A stretch of DNA of 64,000 nt from Desulfobacteraceae bacterium Eth-SRB1 (GTDB lineage Bacteria > Desulfobacterota > Desulfobacteria > Desulfobacterales > ETH-SRB1). Below the pieces are notes generated by a model that saw only the letters and a program-made list of their open reading frames with translations, had not been told where the DNA came from and made no database searches. Each line of letters begins with the position of its first letter. The first letter of the stretch is position 1. The position numbers and the translations under genes were made by a program. The stretch is taken from the NCBI GenBank assembly GCA_004193555.1, contig RPGP01000040.1, forward strand, positions 997,127 to 1,061,126, given 5' to 3'. Of the stretch, positions 53,450-61,705 are shown one piece after another.

Positions 53450-54277
53450 TTAAAAAAAATTACGCAGGTATTCCTCCATGTTAATGGATGTATAGGAAGA
53501 CATGTCGGGCAGACCCAATGATTTTTTTGCGAAGTCAAAGACCTGGTTGTAATTAAATCCTGTTCCAATTTTATCGAAGTATTTCTCCATAATTTTTTTT
53601 GGCCTTAGATTTTCAAACCTGCATGGTATTGAAAGGTTTGGGATATCCTTTTCTGACACAACTTTTTGAATTTCGTTGTTGTTGAATTTTATCAGGGGTC
53701 TGAAGATAGTATAGCCTTCCTTCATCTTCATCATGGGATAAAAACGCTGGGCTGTTTCAAGAAATCTTTTGTTTTTTTCTACAGTTGTATGGTTGTCAGG
53801 TGTAGAAAAGATATTAGATGTCAAATGTTCGATAGAATAACTGACAATATCCCATAGAGAGTAGCCTGCTATCAGTACGAGGTTGTTCCAGTCTTGTGTC
53901 GAGGAAGTCAAAATGTTTTTTAGCATTTTTTTCCTCAGCTCCTGACATAAAAGACACGGATTTGCTGTATTATAAATATATTCATCGGTCTCTTTGGTTT
54001 TATGCCACATTATATTTTTGCCTTGTTTGCTCCAGTAAGATCCGATTTTATCCTTTTCTTCATCTGTATATCTGTGAACAGGAAATGATGCTGCATGCGC
54101 TTCAAAATCAAACCTGAATTCTTTTGCCGCTCTTAAGATAAAATTCATTGCCACAGATGAATCCTTTCCTCCTGAAAACAATATGTAAATTTGTTTGCCG
54201 GGAAGGCTTTCCAGCACATGCCTGTATTCCTCTTTCCATTGGATATAAATTAAATCGGCGCTTAAATTTGCTTTCAT
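53450..54277 (-). CDS. PP-loop ATPase of TtcA-like type
   Basis: 275 residues. The PP-loop motif ILFSGGKDSSVAMNFIL binds ATP. NPCLLCQELRKKML gives a CxxC followed by a basic helix, as in TtcA/TtuA tRNA-sulfur enzymes. The later stretch FRPLIKFNNNEIQKVVSEKDIPNLSIPCRF resembles their RPL..E..IP.C block with one Cys only. So three Cys are positioned like Fe-S ligands. It adenylates a substrate for sulfur or amide transfer. tRNA thiolation is one option. Its partnership with the enolase-family gene 5 bp upstream suggests a small-molecule role instead. Confidence 0.7.
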   Translation of the reverse strand: MKANLSADLIYIQWKEEYRHVLESLPGKQIYILFSGGKDSSVAMNFILRAAKEFRFDFEAHAASFPVHRYTDEEKDKIGSYWSKQGKNIMWHKTKETDEYIYNTANPCLLCQELRKKMLKNILTSSTQDWNNLVLIAGYSLWDIVSYSIEHLTSNIFSTPDNHTTVEKNKRFLETAQRFYPMMKMKEGYTIFRPLIKFNNNEIQKVVSEKDIPNLSIPCRFENLRPKKIMEKYFDKIGTGFNYNQVFDFAKKSLGLPDMSSYTSINMEEYLRNFF

Positions 54278-54282
54278 AAAAA

Positions 54283-55434
54283 TTAGGGTCTCATAATTGT
54301 AACGGTTTTTGAAGAATCGGATAAAAACGACAGGTTTTGCCTGTTGATTTTGACACCCAGCCCAGGGCCATCCAGGGGACCTGCTTCGCCGCCAGGCCCA
54401 AAAGAAACATCATTATCTGTAATATTTTTCTTTAACAAATATTTATCATAGGACCCGTCGTAATATACAGCATCACCACATAAAAGACATAAAATTCTTC
54501 CCGCGGCAGAAAGGATGCCTGATTCGCCTATTGAACATCCAAGCTGGAAAGCAACTTTATTTGCACGAAGATAGTCAATAACCTTGAAAGTTCTTCTAAA
54601 CCCGCCGTTTCTGGACAATTTGACATTTATCATTTGATAGCAACCTTCTTTTACGATTTTTATTACATCCTTTAATGAAGCTGCCGATTCACAGGCCATT
54701 AACATTACACCCGTAGACTTTATTACCTCTGTAAATTCTGCAAAATCCGGATCCTCTTTAGCCATAGGTTCTTCTAATATTTTAATATTATGTTTTTTGA
54801 TAAGCGGTATATGTTTGAATGCAAGATCACGGTTCCAGGCAGAATTCGGATCCAACCTGAGATCGTAATCATTGCCAAACATCAATGCAATTGTTTCGAT
54901 AGCATCCTTATTTTGTTTCAGGTCTTTACTCATCTTAACCCGTAATCTGTTAATTTCCATTTTCCTGATCAATTCACATAGTTCTATTATGCGTTTTTTG
55001 TCGGCAAGAGGGATTGTTGCACCGTAGCAAACTCTGTCGGCAAAGAAATCTTGAGAAAAATATTTAATAATAGAGCGCCCCTGTCTCTTTGCCAACGCAT
55101 CTAAAAGAGACATTTCAAGGGCGCATACAGCCGTATTATGCTCCTTCCCGTCGGGCAGACAGTCGACGAAATTCCAAATTTGCGAAACATTTTTTAAGTC
55201 CCAGGGGAAATAATCTTTTTGTGTAAAAAGATTTATATCTTTTACTACAGTTGCCGGCGTTTCTTTAGTAATAAATTCTACAGGCAGCCCCTCTCCATAA
55301 CCTGTAACTCTTCCCTGATCGCATATAATCTCGACAACGATAATATTGGAAGAAATGCCCTGCATGCGGGAAATAGAAAAATCATCCTTAAAGGGAAGTA
55401 ATATTTTATATACGTTTACCTTCTCAATTTGCAT
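54283..55434 (-). CDS. Enolase-superfamily enzyme (MLE/dipeptide epimerase-like)
   Basis: 383 residues. The N-terminal capping domain is followed by a barrel with RLRVKMSKDL (Lys base), RLDPNSAW (Asp ligand), ILEEPMA (Glu ligand), LMACESAAS (Glu ligand) and INVKLSRNGG (second Lys). These are the catalytic set of the muconate-lactonizing/epimerase subgroup, which takes a proton alpha to a carboxylate. The substrate is not predictable. It ends 5 bp before the PP-loop gene, which strongly suggests co-translation. Confidence 0.8.
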   Translation of the reverse strand: MQIEKVNVYKILLPFKDDFSISRMQGISSNIIVVEIICDQGRVTGYGEGLPVEFITKETPATVVKDINLFTQKDYFPWDLKNVSQIWNFVDCLPDGKEHNTAVCALEMSLLDALAKRQGRSIIKYFSQDFFADRVCYGATIPLADKKRIIELCELIRKMEINRLRVKMSKDLKQNKDAIETIALMFGNDYDLRLDPNSAWNRDLAFKHIPLIKKHNIKILEEPMAKEDPDFAEFTEVIKSTGVMLMACESAASLKDVIKIVKEGCYQMINVKLSRNGGFRRTFKVIDYLRANKVAFQLGCSIGESGILSAAGRILCLLCGDAVYYDGSYDKYLLKKNITDNDVSFGPGGEAGPLDGPGLGVKINRQNLSFLSDSSKTVTIMRP

Positions 55435-55515
55435 AGAATTTTATTCCTTTGTTCATGATGGCTTTAACACACTACCTATACTCAAATATTGTCCGGAAAA
55501 GATTGTTTTGAGAAT

Positions 55516-57507
55516 TTATCGATTTGATAATTTCGAAGAAAGATCGGCAGGCAGTGTCAGGATGAACGATGTTCCTTCATTAACCCTGCTTTTTACTTCC
55601 ATTGTCCCGTTGTGATCCTGCATATGTTTATCGGCAATAAACAGGCCAAGTCCCGTGCCACTGTGCATGCTGCTCTTGTGTCTGGTAGTAAAATAAGGAT
55701 CAAATATCTTATTAATCATGGGCTCAGGAATTCCGGGGCCGTTGTCTTTTATCTCTATGTGAATAACAGCAGGTTTTCCATCCCTGAGAACATTTTTTGT
55801 TCTTAATTCGATTTTTCCTCCCTGGGGTGTAAAATTGATAGCATTTGAAAGAAGATTCAATACAACCTGCTTTATCTTTTCAGAATCCATCCATACTTTT
55901 CCGACGTCAGGATCAAAATCACGCAACATATTAATCTGCTTTGAATTGCTCTGAGGTGAAACAAGCAGGATCATTTTATTAATCAAGTCATGAAGATCTG
56001 TCAACTCAAAATGGGATTCTTTTGTCTTGACCAGATCCAGAAGCTCAGTAATGAGGTTATTAACCCTTTCGGTTTCTTCTTTTGCAATCTCGTAGAAATC
56101 TTTGCGGAATTCTTCATCATCAAATTTACCTGGCAGCAACTGGATAAAGGTTCCTATGGCTGTCATTGGATTTTTGATTTCATGGGCCAGTCTTGCGGCA
56201 ATGTTACCTAAAAATGAGAACTTCTCAGCCCTGCTTAACAGGGCATGAGATTGCTTTAGATCTATCATCTGTTCGTGGAGTTTGCTGTAAAGCCTGGCAT
56301 TGTCAATGGCCATAGCAATCTGTGGCGTAAATATTTCCAGGGTTTCCCTGGTTTCTTCCGGAACACCGTCTTCATCAACAGCATCGGTTGCAATCACCCC
56401 GATTACCTTTGATTTGGCGATCAGAGGAACTACATATACAGAAACAGGATTTCCATAAGTTAATATAATATTCTCTTTTCTCAGGTTTGAACTGTTAACA
56501 TCAGGAACATATTCGGAACGTCCCGTATTGACAACCCTGATCAGGATATTGCTTACACGGTCCATAGAAACCCGGTAATTTTTCACCTCATCCGGCACTT
56601 CACCGTCAAAACCCATCCCGTGTATATATTCAAGATACTTCTTATCTTCATTTACAAGCATTATTATGGCCCGGTGTATATGACACACATTTGATATAAG
56701 GTTCATGACAACCGATAAAAGCTGTTTCAGATCCAGAACGGAAAGGATGGCCTTTCCTGTCTCCTGTACGGCCAAGAGCTGTTTGATTTTTTGATTCAGC
56801 TCAAGATTGAGTCGATTTACCTCTTCGTATTTTATTTCAATAAGCTCCTTGTCCTTCTCCTGTTCGGCAATAATATCTTTCAGTATTGTTCTGGACATAA
56901 AAAATCTGGAAAAATACTCACGAACTCTGTTTTGAAATTGCCATTTTATATGGTACTCACAATATGGAGCGCCGTTAAAATAGCAGCATTCCTCTTTGAA
57001 TGTATAAGGCTTTCCTGACCAGACAGTTGGCAAAAATGTATATATTCCATGATTGAAAAGACATAAATCTTTAGAAAGTTTCATCGACGAATCCCAGTGT
57101 AAACGAAATATGGCCCGATTTCTTCTCACATCTACAAGTTCGACCTTTTTGCTCCGGTTAAATTTATCGTTGATCGCCTGGGCATGTTTAAAGCTCTTTT
57201 CCGAAGACCAGAACGCCTTAACAAATATTTTTTGGATATAGCCAAGAGATGAATTCTCGACAGCATGTCTGGCAATCTTATAGGCGGCCATCTCATCATT
57301 TAGTATAATCCTGGCTCTCTTGAGCAATTCGATAGTTACGGCACAGGAAATCCAGTTATTAGAATCAGTTAAAAAACTTTCAGGGTTTGGAAGCCGATCG
57401 ATTTCATAATCAAGGTGTTTAATAAGGCCTGAACAGTCGCCATTATTATGCACCTTCACATAATTTATTATAGATTTGGAGTTTATACAGTTTACTTCCT
57501 TTTCCAT
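55516..57507 (-). CDS. Sensor histidine kinase with V4R-like and GAF domains
   Basis: 663 residues. No membrane segment is seen, so it is cytoplasmic. Residues about 100-185 end in EECCYFNGAPYCEYHIKW, like the V4R/XylR-N ligand-binding domain. A coiled helix follows, then a GAF domain (LLSVVMNLISNVCHIHRAIIM...). The HisKA box is NIAARLAHEIKNPMTAIGTF (phospho-His), followed by the HATPase motifs NLLSNAINFTPQGG, DNGPGIPEP and GTGLGLFIADKHM. It would sense a small molecule. A partner regulator is not adjacent; the NtrC gene at 59096 is the nearest candidate. Confidence 0.85.
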   Translation of the reverse strand: MEKEVNCINSKSIINYVKVHNNGDCSGLIKHLDYEIDRLPNPESFLTDSNNWISCAVTIELLKRARIILNDEMAAYKIARHAVENSSLGYIQKIFVKAFWSSEKSFKHAQAINDKFNRSKKVELVDVRRNRAIFRLHWDSSMKLSKDLCLFNHGIYTFLPTVWSGKPYTFKEECCYFNGAPYCEYHIKWQFQNRVREYFSRFFMSRTILKDIIAEQEKDKELIEIKYEEVNRLNLELNQKIKQLLAVQETGKAILSVLDLKQLLSVVMNLISNVCHIHRAIIMLVNEDKKYLEYIHGMGFDGEVPDEVKNYRVSMDRVSNILIRVVNTGRSEYVPDVNSSNLRKENIILTYGNPVSVYVVPLIAKSKVIGVIATDAVDEDGVPEETRETLEIFTPQIAMAIDNARLYSKLHEQMIDLKQSHALLSRAEKFSFLGNIAARLAHEIKNPMTAIGTFIQLLPGKFDDEEFRKDFYEIAKEETERVNNLITELLDLVKTKESHFELTDLHDLINKMILLVSPQSNSKQINMLRDFDPDVGKVWMDSEKIKQVVLNLLSNAINFTPQGGKIELRTKNVLRDGKPAVIHIEIKDNGPGIPEPMINKIFDPYFTTRHKSSMHSGTGLGLFIADKHMQDHNGTMEVKSRVNEGTSFILTLPADLSSKLSNR

Positions 57508-57601
57508 TCAACATCTCTTTTGCAATTGTTTTAGAAGGTTGGCTTTAATTACTTTATGACTTGATATCATATTTTAATATTCGTTGGTTTTAACGCCGGT
57601 T

Positions 57602-58579
57602 TTATGCAAGCCTGCCTAAAAAGGGCCTAAGTTGTGGCAAATATAATGGTTGTTCAACTATTACGCCGGATGATGGAATCTCTTTCATGGCCGGATATTT
57701 TTTCCATTGATACCAGCCTTCCGGATGTTTGTAAATATATTGCTCCAGATATTTTAATACGATCTCTCCGACAGATGCACCTGTTAATTGTTTGAACTGC
57801 TTTTTTATTTCTTCTATTGAAGTCCCAATAAATTTATAACGATGGTTATAATTTCTATGCATAACGCCGAACACTACGGAAGTGCCGCCTCTTTTTGAAA
57901 TAATATTCATCGTTCTATCCAGATTTATTTTTTTACCCAAAAAGGATATTATGTTGTTTTTAGAAGGTCTCCATTCATCTATCTCATCACACTGAGTGAG
58001 TACCACACGATTTTCTTTCAGGTTATCAAAAATGGCTTTTATGACATTAGGAGTATTATCAGCGTCGATAATTCTTGTTGAGAAGTTATTAGACTGTTTC
58101 ATAGCTGTGTTACGCATGTGGGCTGATGAAAATCTTACTATCATCGTTACAGGATATTTCTTATTACAAAGAAAAGCCGGAATCAGTTCAATGCCTCCTA
58201 CATGGCCGGTGATTAACAAAACGCCCCTGCCTCTGGAAAGACCTCTTTCTATGGCTCCTGTGCCTGTACTTTCCATGTGTGTTTTTACAAAAGCTCTGAG
58301 TGTTTCAGGAGATGAATATGCGTTGAAAAACTTTTCATAATAGTGAGATACTATACCCCGAAAAATATCCCTGGTAATTGACCTTATCTCAGATCTACTT
58401 TTTGGGCCGGCAAATACCTCCTTAACAGAGCTTTTTATTTTCTGCTTTTCTTTTCTGTTAAAGAAAAAATATAACCTGCCAAGACAGGTTATATAGAAAA
58501 AGGTGATTTTCCACCCGATTTTCTTGCACATAAAAATGTTAAACCTTAATTGCAAAAAAGAGCTCAAATTTATCTTCAT
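57602..58579 (-). CDS. LpxL/HtrB-like lipid acyltransferase
   Basis: 325 residues from the ATG ending at 58579, which has a ggggg site; a longer start would add an unlikely tail. The first 40 residues include a membrane anchor (IGWKITFFYITCLGRLYFFF). The catalytic motif is TGHVGGIEL (HxxxxE), and VVLTQCDEIDEW and the HPEGWYQWKKYP end are typical of the LpxL/LpxM family. It adds an acyl chain to a lipid A-like or related lipid acceptor. It is the first gene of a minus-strand run with the kinase. Confidence 0.8.
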   Translation of the reverse strand: MKINLSSFLQLRFNIFMCKKIGWKITFFYITCLGRLYFFFNRKEKQKIKSSVKEVFAGPKSRSEIRSITRDIFRGIVSHYYEKFFNAYSSPETLRAFVKTHMESTGTGAIERGLSRGRGVLLITGHVGGIELIPAFLCNKKYPVTMIVRFSSAHMRNTAMKQSNNFSTRIIDADNTPNVIKAIFDNLKENRVVLTQCDEIDEWRPSKNNIISFLGKKINLDRTMNIISKRGGTSVVFGVMHRNYNHRYKFIGTSIEEIKKQFKQLTGASVGEIVLKYLEQYIYKHPEGWYQWKKYPAMKEIPSSGVIVEQPLYLPQLRPFLGRLA

Positions 58580-58941
58580 TGTAATTACCCCCTTATGTTT
58601 GATGGTTTTGTAATAAGTTTTTTTTATCAAGAAAGCCAGTCTGCGTGCAACGCACAGGCAGGTACGAAAACACGAAAAATATGTAATCATTTCAGGCTTT
58701 CAGTTTTTTATGATTATTTTTTATTAAATCTTATTAAATTTCCTCAAAATACATGCCAGAGTATCAATTTCTTAGAATTTAGTTCAAAAAACAGACGCTG
58801 TTTATATGGATGAGTATGACTCAATTTATAAAAAGACTTATTTTACAAGTAGTTATCGCCGATATCATATAATGCAACCAGACTGATTTTTAGCGGGAAG
58901 TTTAACGGAGTGAAGAGAAAGAATAAAGATATTTTATAGTT

Positions 58942-58983
58942 ATGCACAACAACCTGTGCATTCATGCACATATTTTTGTGCAT
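58942..58983. promoter_or_regulatory. Twin palindromic operator-like sites
   Basis: atgcacaacaacctgtgcat (58942-58961) and atgcacatatttttgtgcat (58964-58983) share ATGCACA-N6-TGTGCAT with different spacers. Their centres are 22 bp apart, two turns of the helix, so two dimers could bind side by side. They lie about 115-155 bp upstream of the NtrC start, a typical place for enhancer sites. Stem-loop or terminator function is the alternative. Confidence 0.65.
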
Positions 58984-59095: not shown

Positions 59096-60442
59096 ATGAA
59101 TAAAAATGCTACAATACTTGTTGTTGATGATGAATCCGGAGTCCGCAGATCCTTTAATATGGTCTTAAAGGATGAATATAAGGTTTTGCTTGCCGGAACA
59201 GGGAAAAAGGCTGTCGACATTTATACCAAACATGCTATCGACCTTGTTTTGCTGGATATCCTCCTTCCTGATATTGACGGCATTGATCTTCTTAAAAAAC
59301 TCAAGCAGACAGATCCAAATACCGAGATTATTATGGTAACAGCCGTCAACGATCTTCAGACGGCGGTAAAAGCAATTAAATTAGGAGCTTATGAGTATAT
59401 CATCAAGCCGTTTATTGTTGAGGATGTTTTAACGATAATCAGCAGGGCTTTAGAAAAAAGGCAGCTTGTTAAGGAGGTAACATATCTCAGAAATGAGCTT
59501 GAAAGGTATCATCCTTTTGAGCAGATGGTGGGTAAAGATAAAAAGATGAGAAGTATTTTTGAGTTAATATCGACTGTTTCTCAAAGTGACGGCGCCGTAC
59601 TTATTCAGGGGGAAAGCGGAACAGGCAAGGAGCTTGTTGCCAGAGCGATACATAACCTTAGTCCGCGGGGAAATCAGCTTTTTGTGGTGATAAATTGTGC
59701 GGTCATACCCCCGACCCTGATGGAAAGTGAAATTTTTGGGCACAACAAGGGAGCATTTACGGGCGCTACAGGCACAAGCATCGGCAAGATGGAAATAGCC
59801 AATAAGGGAACGGTTTTTCTTGATGATATTGATTCCCTGAATATTAATATGCAGGCCAAACTCCTCAGGGTTATACAGGAGAAGGAATTTGAGAGATTGG
59901 GCAGCCGCAAGGTTTTTAAGGCTGACGTGAGGTTTGTTGCCGCTTCTAATCAGGACTTAAGCAAACTGATTTTACAGGGTAAGTTTCGTGAAGATCTTTT
60001 TTACAGGCTGAATGTATTTACAATAAAGTTGCCTCCTTTGAGAAAGCGAAGAGGCGATATATTGTTACTTCTGGAACACTTTTCTGATCTGCATGCAAAA
60101 AAGACAGGAAAACCCGGCATAAAGTTTTCAGAGAGGGCTATAAAAGTATTAATGGAATATGACTGGCCCGGAAATATCAGAGAAATTCAAAATCTGGTGG
60201 AAAGGTTATGCACAATAAAACAAAATTCGGTTATTCAGTTGAAGGATGTTGCAACACTTAATATCAGCAAGAAAAAAATAACAGATGGCTCTCTCAAAGA
60301 GGCGGTAAGTTCTTTTGAAAAACAATATATTGCCGAAGCGCTTGAAATGCTTGAAGGCAACAGAAAAAACGTATCGGAAAAATTAGGCATTCATCGCAAT
60401 ACACTCCTTGCGAAAATTCATGAATACGGATTGCATATATAA
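59096..60442 (+). CDS. NtrC-family sigma54-dependent response regulator
   Basis: 448 residues. Receiver domain with phospho-acceptor D54 (LVLLDILLPD). Central AAA+ domain with GESGTGKELVARAIH (Walker A), GHNKGAFTGAT (sigma54 contact loop), GTVFLDDI (Walker B) and SNQDL...FREDLFYRLNVF. C-terminal Fis-type HTH (NRKNVSEKLGIHRNTLLAKI). It activates sigma54 promoters when phosphorylated. The Shine-Dalgarno sequence is supplied by a repeat element. The following hybrid kinase gene is the probable partner. Confidence 0.95.
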   Translation: MNKNATILVVDDESGVRRSFNMVLKDEYKVLLAGTGKKAVDIYTKHAIDLVLLDILLPDIDGIDLLKKLKQTDPNTEIIMVTAVNDLQTAVKAIKLGAYEYIIKPFIVEDVLTIISRALEKRQLVKEVTYLRNELERYHPFEQMVGKDKKMRSIFELISTVSQSDGAVLIQGESGTGKELVARAIHNLSPRGNQLFVVINCAVIPPTLMESEIFGHNKGAFTGATGTSIGKMEIANKGTVFLDDIDSLNINMQAKLLRVIQEKEFERLGSRKVFKADVRFVAASNQDLSKLILQGKFREDLFYRLNVFTIKLPPLRKRRGDILLLLEHFSDLHAKKTGKPGIKFSERAIKVLMEYDWPGNIREIQNLVERLCTIKQNSVIQLKDVATLNISKKKITDGSLKEAVSSFEKQYIAEALEMLEGNRKNVSEKLGIHRNTLLAKIHEYGLHI

Positions 60443-60484: not shown

Positions 60485-61705
60485 TTGCCGAATGAAGATA
60501 TCCTGAAGATGTGCTCAGAACTAAAAAATAAGGATAAAAATAACAAGCGCCCGGGAAAGCCATATGTTTTGGTGGCAGATGATGAGCAGAACATTCTGCG
60601 AGCCATGTCTTTGGTACTTGAAGCAGAGTTTGATGTTACCGTAGTAGATAGTGGCGACAAAGCAATCAAAAAAATTCGGAAGGGCATGGATTTTGATGTA
60701 GTTTCATTGGATCTGCAAATGCCTGGGCTGTCAGGCATTGATACGCTCAAAGCTATAAAACAATTAAGCCCTTCTACGGAAGTATTGATCGTTACAGCTC
60801 ACTCAAATGTTGAATCGACAAAAGGAGCTCTCAAATTTGGGGCTTACGATTACATTGACAAACCATTCAACAATGCTAAATTACTTGCAGCAATTCGCAA
60901 AGGTGTAGAACGCCGAAACAATACAATAAAAGCGGAAAAAGCCAAAGAACAGCTTGAATTTGTCAAAGCACAATTAATGGAATCGGAAAAATTCTCCGCT
61001 ATTGGGCAACTGTTAGCCGGGGTTGCTCATGAATTAAATAATCCCTTAACAACGGTTATGGGTTTCTCAGAGCTTCTTCTTACAAGAAAATATTCGTCTG
61101 ATGAAACACGAAACTGCCTGGAAAAAATAAACAAAAGCTCTTTGCTCTGCAAAAATATCGTCCAAAAGCTGCTTACATTTTCCAGAAAAGAGGAATCCAA
61201 ACAGGAATACATCCAGGTCAATCACATTATCGAAAGTACCCTTGAGCTTAAACAGCATGACTTCAAAGTAGATAGTATCAAACTGGTCAAGCAATTGGCC
61301 GATAATATGCCCTGTACAATGGCTGACTTCTACGAACTCCAGCAAGTATTTCTGAATATGATCAATAATGCAGACCAGGCGATGAAAATGTATGCCGGAA
61401 GAGGAATACTGACTGTTAAGAGTGCGTTTGATGAAAAAGTAATACGCATAAGTTTCATTGATACAGGACCCGGCATCCCTAAAAAGAATCTTCAGAAAAT
61501 CTTTGAGCCCCTCTTTACAACAAAGAAAAGAGGAGAAGGCACAGGGCTTGGTTTAAGTATTTGCTATGAAATAATCAAAAAACATGAGGGGGATATCTTT
61601 GTGGCCAATAACCCAAAAAAAGGAGCAAGCTTCATAATAGAGCTGCCTGTTGTTGACAAGCTTTCGCAAACTGTACCAATCTCCAATAAAAAACAAAATC
61701 CTTGA
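60485..61705 (+). CDS. Receiver-histidine kinase hybrid
   Basis: 406 residues from a TTG start; an ATG at 60511 is an alternative. The receiver comes first (YVLVADDEQNILRAM, phospho-acceptor D76 in VVSLDLQMPGLSG, TAHSN and DKPF). Then follow a short coiled coil, the HisKA box FSAIGQLLAGVAHELNNPLTTVMGFSELL, and HATPase with NMINNADQAM, DTGPGIPKKNL and GTGLGLSICYEI. No sensor domain or membrane segment, so it would act as a relay between an upstream kinase and the NtrC protein, 42 bp upstream. Confidence 0.9.
   Translation: MPNEDILKMCSELKNKDKNNKRPGKPYVLVADDEQNILRAMSLVLEAEFDVTVVDSGDKAIKKIRKGMDFDVVSLDLQMPGLSGIDTLKAIKQLSPSTEVLIVTAHSNVESTKGALKFGAYDYIDKPFNNAKLLAAIRKGVERRNNTIKAEKAKEQLEFVKAQLMESEKFSAIGQLLAGVAHELNNPLTTVMGFSELLLTRKYSSDETRNCLEKINKSSLLCKNIVQKLLTFSRKEESKQEYIQVNHIIESTLELKQHDFKVDSIKLVKQLADNMPCTMADFYELQQVFLNMINNADQAMKMYAGRGILTVKSAFDEKVIRISFIDTGPGIPKKNLQKIFEPLFTTKKRGEGTGLGLSICYEIIKKHEGDIFVANNPKKGASFIIELPVVDKLSQTVPISNKKQNP

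Follow-up and report, generated by a model that had tools for sequence, protein, structure and literature searches.

A sigma-54-linked operon of Desulfobacteraceae bacterium Eth-SRB1 that may make and sense a small molecule

Why should an acyltransferase, a sensor kinase, an enolase-superfamily enzyme and a PP-loop ATPase be encoded side by side? The question is raised by a locus in the genome of Desulfobacteraceae bacterium Eth-SRB1, which we have analysed within a window of 64,000 nucleotides (contig RPGP01000040.1, positions 997,127 to 1,061,126). An earlier, sequence-only reading of this DNA described four co-directional genes with gaps of 94, 81 and 5 bp, and suggested that together they may make and sense a carboxylate- or sulfur-containing compound. 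The coordinates of the open reading frames bear out the layout, with all four genes on the minus strand. The features of the locus, in window positions, are the following.

57602-58579, minus strand: acyltransferase, LpxL/HtrB-like (LPLAT), the operon's first gene (Lip_A_acyltrans PF03279, E 1.7e-10)
55516-57507, minus strand: histidine kinase with an H-NOX/V4R-fold sensor (1-195), GAF, HisKA and HATPase domains (Pfam; AF2 model and fold searches)
54283-55434, minus strand: enolase-superfamily (MLE subgroup) enzyme of a rare 'MACES' subclass (PF13378 / MR_MLE_C, E 9e-30; alignments, tree)
53450-54277, minus strand: PP-loop ATPase with CxxC...C, a predicted [4Fe-4S] sulfur transferase (ATP_bind_3 PF01171, E 3e-7; AF2 model)
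58743-58758, minus strand: sigma-54 -24/-12 element TGGCATGTATTTTGAG, upstream of the operon (motif kept in homologous upstream regions)
58943-58960 and 58965-58982, no strand assigned: paired enhancer-like sites TGCACA-N6-TGTGCA (copy number, conserved spacing)
59096-60442, plus strand: divergent NtrC-type sigma-54 activator/response regulator, the presumed partner (PF00158, PF00072)

The acyltransferase frame is open to 58690; a start at 58579 gives a 325-aa form that agrees with its relatives, and the HX4E motif is kept in 28/28 homologues. Directly after the sigma-54 regulator lies a second receiver-histidine kinase hybrid (60485-61705), whose position is conserved in the same family.

The grouping of these genes was followed in a class-wide set of 291 genomes and in a separate profile scan over named genomes; a first scan of close relatives had given no match, and a plasmid search one weak match only. 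PP-loop relatives turned up in 21 of the 291 genomes of the class. The profile scan gave 43 loci, mostly in Desulfobacterales MAGs, with others in NaphS2, Eth-SRB2, Candidatus Desulfatibia vada and Spirochaetales. An intact PP-loop ORF is present at 41 of them (Desulfobacterales and two Spirochaetales), and at 29 the enolase gene directly adjoins the PP-loop gene, often overlapping it, so the pair that the sequence-only reading had asked to be sought in other genomes is conserved there. The kinase is also present in about 20 loci, and the acyltransferase cluster comprises 19. Within the 291 genomes, the enolase was found in 30 and the sensor kinase in 31, with both in 28 (P about 1e-33, phylogeny ignored), and 13 of the 14 genomes with the PP-loop gene also have the enolase (P about 1e-13, again with phylogeny ignored); one genome (G100) has the kinase without the enolase. 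Several exceptions are found at contig ends. With gene order, too, shared by many genomes and kept across families, the grouping is far above chance. It also outlasts rearrangement, as the order at a spirochaete locus (L082) is enolase, PP-loop, kinase, acyltransferase.

It should be pointed out that the operon need not include the PP-loop gene, an addition to a core made of the acyltransferase, the kinase and the enolase. Seventeen genomes have the enolase without it, and in three members of the window's own family (G014, G002 and G106) the operon occupies the same tsaC/guaB locus with the PP-loop gene missing. Its absence from so many otherwise equal operons places sulfur outside the operon core. 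A further add-on at several loci is a 512-aa protein, named by reading its sequence as a B12-type radical SAM protein; it is not in the window, and lies between the acyltransferase and the kinase in L054 (5202-6740), L060 (5288-6826) and L071 (5188-6726). Other variants were seen as well. One PP-loop gene can be flanked by two different enolases (L062 8074-11343; L063 5169-8288; L064), kinases stand in tandem at L073 (2946-6625), where the first consists of sensor and GAF without the catalytic part, and the sensor part of the kinase at L153 (G002:C13:25603-26323) is apparently split by a frameshift.

In one clear case, the enolase and the PP-loop gene have been exchanged together as a cassette. 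When L054, a locus with the PP-loop gene, is compared with L156, a locus without it, identity is 95% for the regulator, 89% for the sensor and 88% for the acyltransferase and kinase core, against 64% for the enolase. At the DNA level the two are about 90% identical as far as the 3' end of the kinase gene, where identity drops to about 65%, and it is low throughout the enolase gene. Enolases 74-81% identical to that of L054 are found in other PP-loop operons, in which the regulator shares only 76-77% identity with the L054 one. The pattern in the window's family resembles such an exchange, though less decisively: enolases are 68-71% identical between the two PP-loop states and 86-91% within them, with kinase cores at 79-91%.

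How is this operon controlled? The pattern TGGYRYG-N4-TTG, in practice nearly always with TGGCAYG, is found upstream of the acyltransferase gene in 16 of 33 loci, compared with one occurrence on the reverse strand and 0.14 expected in shuffles. The family-specific form TGGCAYG-N4-TTG is required for this distinction, as the generic consensus TGGCACN5TTGCW with 2 mismatches stays at chance level. In the window, the element stands about 220 bp downstream of the paired TGCACA-N6-TGTGCA sites, which are the sole exact copies in the 3.34-Mb genome, and the distance is held at 216-224 bp in the window, L049, L060, L071, L089, L153 and L156.

In four relatives there are 8-18 copies of the site per genome, and they mark a regulon. 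The 33 site-bearing regions contain 23 sigma-54 elements, 20 of them correctly oriented at 60-250 bp from a site. Such positions make up about 8% of the bases, and for the reversed control pattern the count is 0 of 3. The genes near these sites encode teneurin/Rhs-like giants, a GAF/MshEN secretion-pilus ATPase (L190), PilZ proteins, a response-regulator cyclase, receiver proteins and a TIR-HEAT protein. The giants, which are secreted proteins, are encoded beside the enhancer sites at L192 (1-4113), L198 (1-3564) and L202 (2-3718), and at L192 and L198 a sigma-54 element is present as well, at a distance of 164-199 bp. The window genome has five one-mismatch sites, none of them suitably spaced from a sigma-54 element. 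As for the protein that reads the sites, the position and conservation of the divergent regulator suggest that it binds the pair: it is divergent to the operon in many loci, 14 of its 15 homologues have GAFTGA, the phospho-Asp is kept, and the helix GIHRNTL is found in nearly all. RpoN is encoded in the genome.

With the genes of an apparent small-molecule pathway and a ligand-sensing kinase in one operon behind an enhancer/sigma-54 promoter, the cells probably make a compound, sense it and boost its production. That the operon is, in full, a sigma-54-dependent and autoregulated make-and-sense module is a reading to which we give an even chance. The acyltransferase and the enolase-family enzyme would produce a small molecule, probably an acylated carboxylate, and in some lineages, the window included, the Fe-S PP-loop enzyme may modify it further, probably through ATP-driven sulfur insertion. 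The H-NOX/V4R-fold kinase would bind this product or a related ligand and phosphorylate the divergent NtrC-type regulator as its putative partner. The regulator, in turn, would bind the paired TGCACA-N6-TGTGCA sites and activate the operon's own sigma-54 promoter, closing a feedback loop; in the relatives it might activate surface-protein, pilus and signalling genes as well. The original suggestion of a compound both made and sensed gains from the sigma-54/enhancer layout and the sensor-fold kinase, and loses in two respects, since sulfur does not belong to the core and the sensor alleles do not track the enolase.

This last point leads to the main rival, a pure output operon, in which the kinase detects a cue, from outside or from metabolism, that has nothing to do with the product, and the enzymes make an envelope lipid or a secreted metabolite in response. 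We regard it as a serious minority view. The acyltransferase is LpxL-like, surface proteins are abundant in the regulon, and the enolase swap described above leaves the sensor unchanged. Sensor alleles switch independently of enolase type in L049 and L050, too; a matched signal/receptor pair should be expected to change in step, and this independence counts against the product being the ligand. Weighing further against a make-and-sense module, the kinase looks cytosolic, with no exporter and no extracellular sensor. What speaks against the output operon is the placement of the kinase gene among biosynthetic genes in nearly all loci, together with the feedback promoter at its own operon, although an embedded kinase and a feedback promoter are also usual for autoregulated two-component systems. 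We also considered co-evolution of enolase and sensor as proof of a signal/receptor pair and rejected it: besides the independent switching, the partial correlation of enolase distances is unspecific, at 0.49 with the sensor and 0.41 with the GAF domain.

The kinase sensor deserves a closer look. Its N-terminal part in the window has zero Pfam matches even at E = 1, the V4R profile PF02830 is not listed among the matches of 12 kinases at E up to 1, and a sequence search of solved structures with the sensor gave no match. The AF2 model (pLDDT 79) matches H-NOX folds first (E about 1e-5, Z up to about 15), followed by DmpR/MopR/PoxR (Foldseek E 0.0016-0.04), VirS and Bet3. The domain had earlier been called V4R-like and ligand-binding; given the match to DmpR/MopR/PoxR the name is right in fold, and the cysteine spacing agrees with it, while the Pfam V4R profile does not. 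C149, E172, C175 and C183 are invariant in the enolase-linked kinases, and the cysteine spacing of 26 and 8 equals that of the DmpR zinc ligands Cys151, Cys177 and Cys185 (PMC7264223), which predicts a zinc site from sequence; the zinc-site Glu in that paper is numbered two residues off the position equivalent to the invariant Glu172. The H-NOX matches, the best of all in fold with Z about 15, could also mean that the domain binds heme and senses NO or O2, the enzymes being a stress response, and His108 of the window kinase does lie near the expected proximal position. This residue, however, is Asn, Tyr or Arg in relatives, the 21 sequences compared have neither an invariant His nor YxSxR, and a DmpR-like Cys3/Glu site takes the place of the heme features, which makes a gas sensor improbable.

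The PP-loop protein keeps C108, C111 and C219 invariant in 39 sequences, as it does G37, D39 and S40, and its SGGKDS motif is invariant or nearly so across the same 39. The three cysteines are the TtcA-like ones noted earlier. The best fold matches of its AF2 model (pLDDT 89.5) are NcsA and TtuA, two of the [4Fe-4S] thiolases, enzymes that bind the cluster by three cysteines and leave one iron site free (PMC10067955). Could it act on tRNA after all, as an additional thiolase or as the housekeeping TtcA in a chance location? The shared Fe-S PP-loop fold invites the thought, and so do the three cysteines, all of which align with those of a TtcA-like paralogue elsewhere in the genome (L002). The presence of this paralogue, however, argues that the window protein is not the housekeeping enzyme; a genome devoid of a separate TtcA, along with a pair that is not conserved, is what the sequence-only reading had named as fatal to its proposal. 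The paralogue has GHNKDD where the window's family has GYSLWD in the same aligned segment, the window protein gave no match to the TtcA family model, and its sparse distribution is tied to the enolase. The tRNA reading is thus very doubtful, and the NcsA/TtuA-type fold, the invariant cysteines and the exchanged motif suggest that the protein likely inserts sulfur into a non-tRNA substrate.

In a more distant PP-loop clade (36% identity), the partners are a methyltransferase and kinases or HD-GYP proteins. It defines a second operon type (L043 7515-12788, L044 7312-12792, L045 8297-14203, L077 10007-15440, L080 5765-11671), in which the PP-loop relative is joined by a SAM methyltransferase, by a further protein that has about 375 aa or is larger, and by a kinase or HD-GYP protein carrying a related H-NOX/V4R-like domain. 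The N-domains of these kinases and HD-GYP proteins are profile-similar to the window-type sensor (hhalign 97%, E 1.7e-10) and have C-H-C-C residues.

The enolase of the window shows clear fold and sequence matches to its superfamily, the best in sequence being 3jva and 2p88; a reading as MenC was discarded at 112.7 bits, below the cut-off of 200.65. Most operon enolases have RxK or KxK on strand 2, D-N, E-Q, ADES and an Arg on strand 6. The window enolase has RVK, DPN, EEP, ACES and a strand-6 Lys (Lys272), with Cys248 where an Asp would be expected to serve as third metal ligand, a role that we presume from superfamily knowledge carried over through the 3jva alignment. The same Cys/Lys pattern is found in NaphS2 (L072) and L074, and the three enolases group in the tree with SH-aLRT 99, or 84 after removal of the active-site columns, which indicates a small conserved subclass and not a private lesion. 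By its sequence, then, the window enolase falls in a rare subclass with Cys for the metal-ligand Asp. It is 54% identical to the L049 enolase, compared with 70-86% for the neighbouring genes; a shared origin of f1-family and window enolases is not rejected (AU p 0.12), so both replacement and fast divergence are possible. The Asp-to-Cys change and this low identity might be taken for loss of the catalytic metal site in a decaying operon, a reading made very unlikely by the recurrence of the pattern in NaphS2 and L074, whose grouping does not depend on the active-site columns, and by the intact ORFs, promoter and enhancers.

Some sulfate reducers of this order are uncultured and belong to syntrophic and aggregate-forming communities. 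One may speculate, tentatively, about chemical signalling in Desulfobacterota by a system that has relatives in Spirochaetota. An autoinducer would come from the acyltransferase and the enolase, with or without the Fe-S PP-loop and B12 radical SAM enzymes, and would be sensed by the kinase; it would turn on teneurin/Rhs-type surface proteins and pili as a sigma-54 regulon, and the swappable tailoring cassette would give strain-specific variants. Our literature searches met with no account of such a signalling system in these sulfate reducers, and the terms looked for do not occur in PMC10553843. The operon, its control code and the exchangeable cassette are well supported, the interpretation first offered for the locus partly so. 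New beyond it are the sigma-54/enhancer code with its regulon, the cassette exchange, the optional nature of the PP-loop gene and the Cys enolase subclass. Target genes can be listed from the predicted enhancer/promoter code, and through the exchangeable enolase/PP-loop cassette the chemistry becomes open to test. If the assignments are true, [4Fe-4S] PP-loop enzymes would gain a role outside tRNA, and the enolases a subclass with Cys at a metal position.

Among known systems, LuxO-type quorum sensing is alike in having a kinase and a sigma-54 activator linked, here to biosynthesis genes; the window kinase is soluble, however, and a self-made diffusible signal would here be a hypothesis drawn from gene linkage and promoter logic. 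The V4R/XylR-N sensors DmpR, MopR and PoxR share the fold and the spacing of the three zinc cysteines. Unlike them, the window sensor is fused to a histidine kinase and has no Pfam V4R match, and the His/Trp of their aromatic pocket has no counterpart in its sequence. LarE offers a precedent for PP-loop sulfur insertion into a small molecule, and some LarE proteins carry [4Fe-4S], but the window protein reaches 21.8 bits with TIGR00268 against a cut-off of 150, and no lar genes are nearby. It has the PP-loop fold, SGGKDS and CxxC plus third Cys in common with the [4Fe-4S] tRNA thiolases NcsA, TtuA and TtcA; it differs from them in lacking the substrate-side motif of TtcA and in belonging to a biosynthetic/sensor operon, and it is 26% identical to its TtcA-like paralogue. 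With the dipeptide epimerases and N-succinylamino acid racemases of the MLE subgroup, finally, the operon enolases share the fold, the strand-2 Lys and, in most of them, the D/E/D ligands. Most depart from that subgroup in having RxK or KxK on strand 2 and Arg for the strand-6 Lys, whereas the window enolase has the strand-6 Lys and a Cys as its third ligand.
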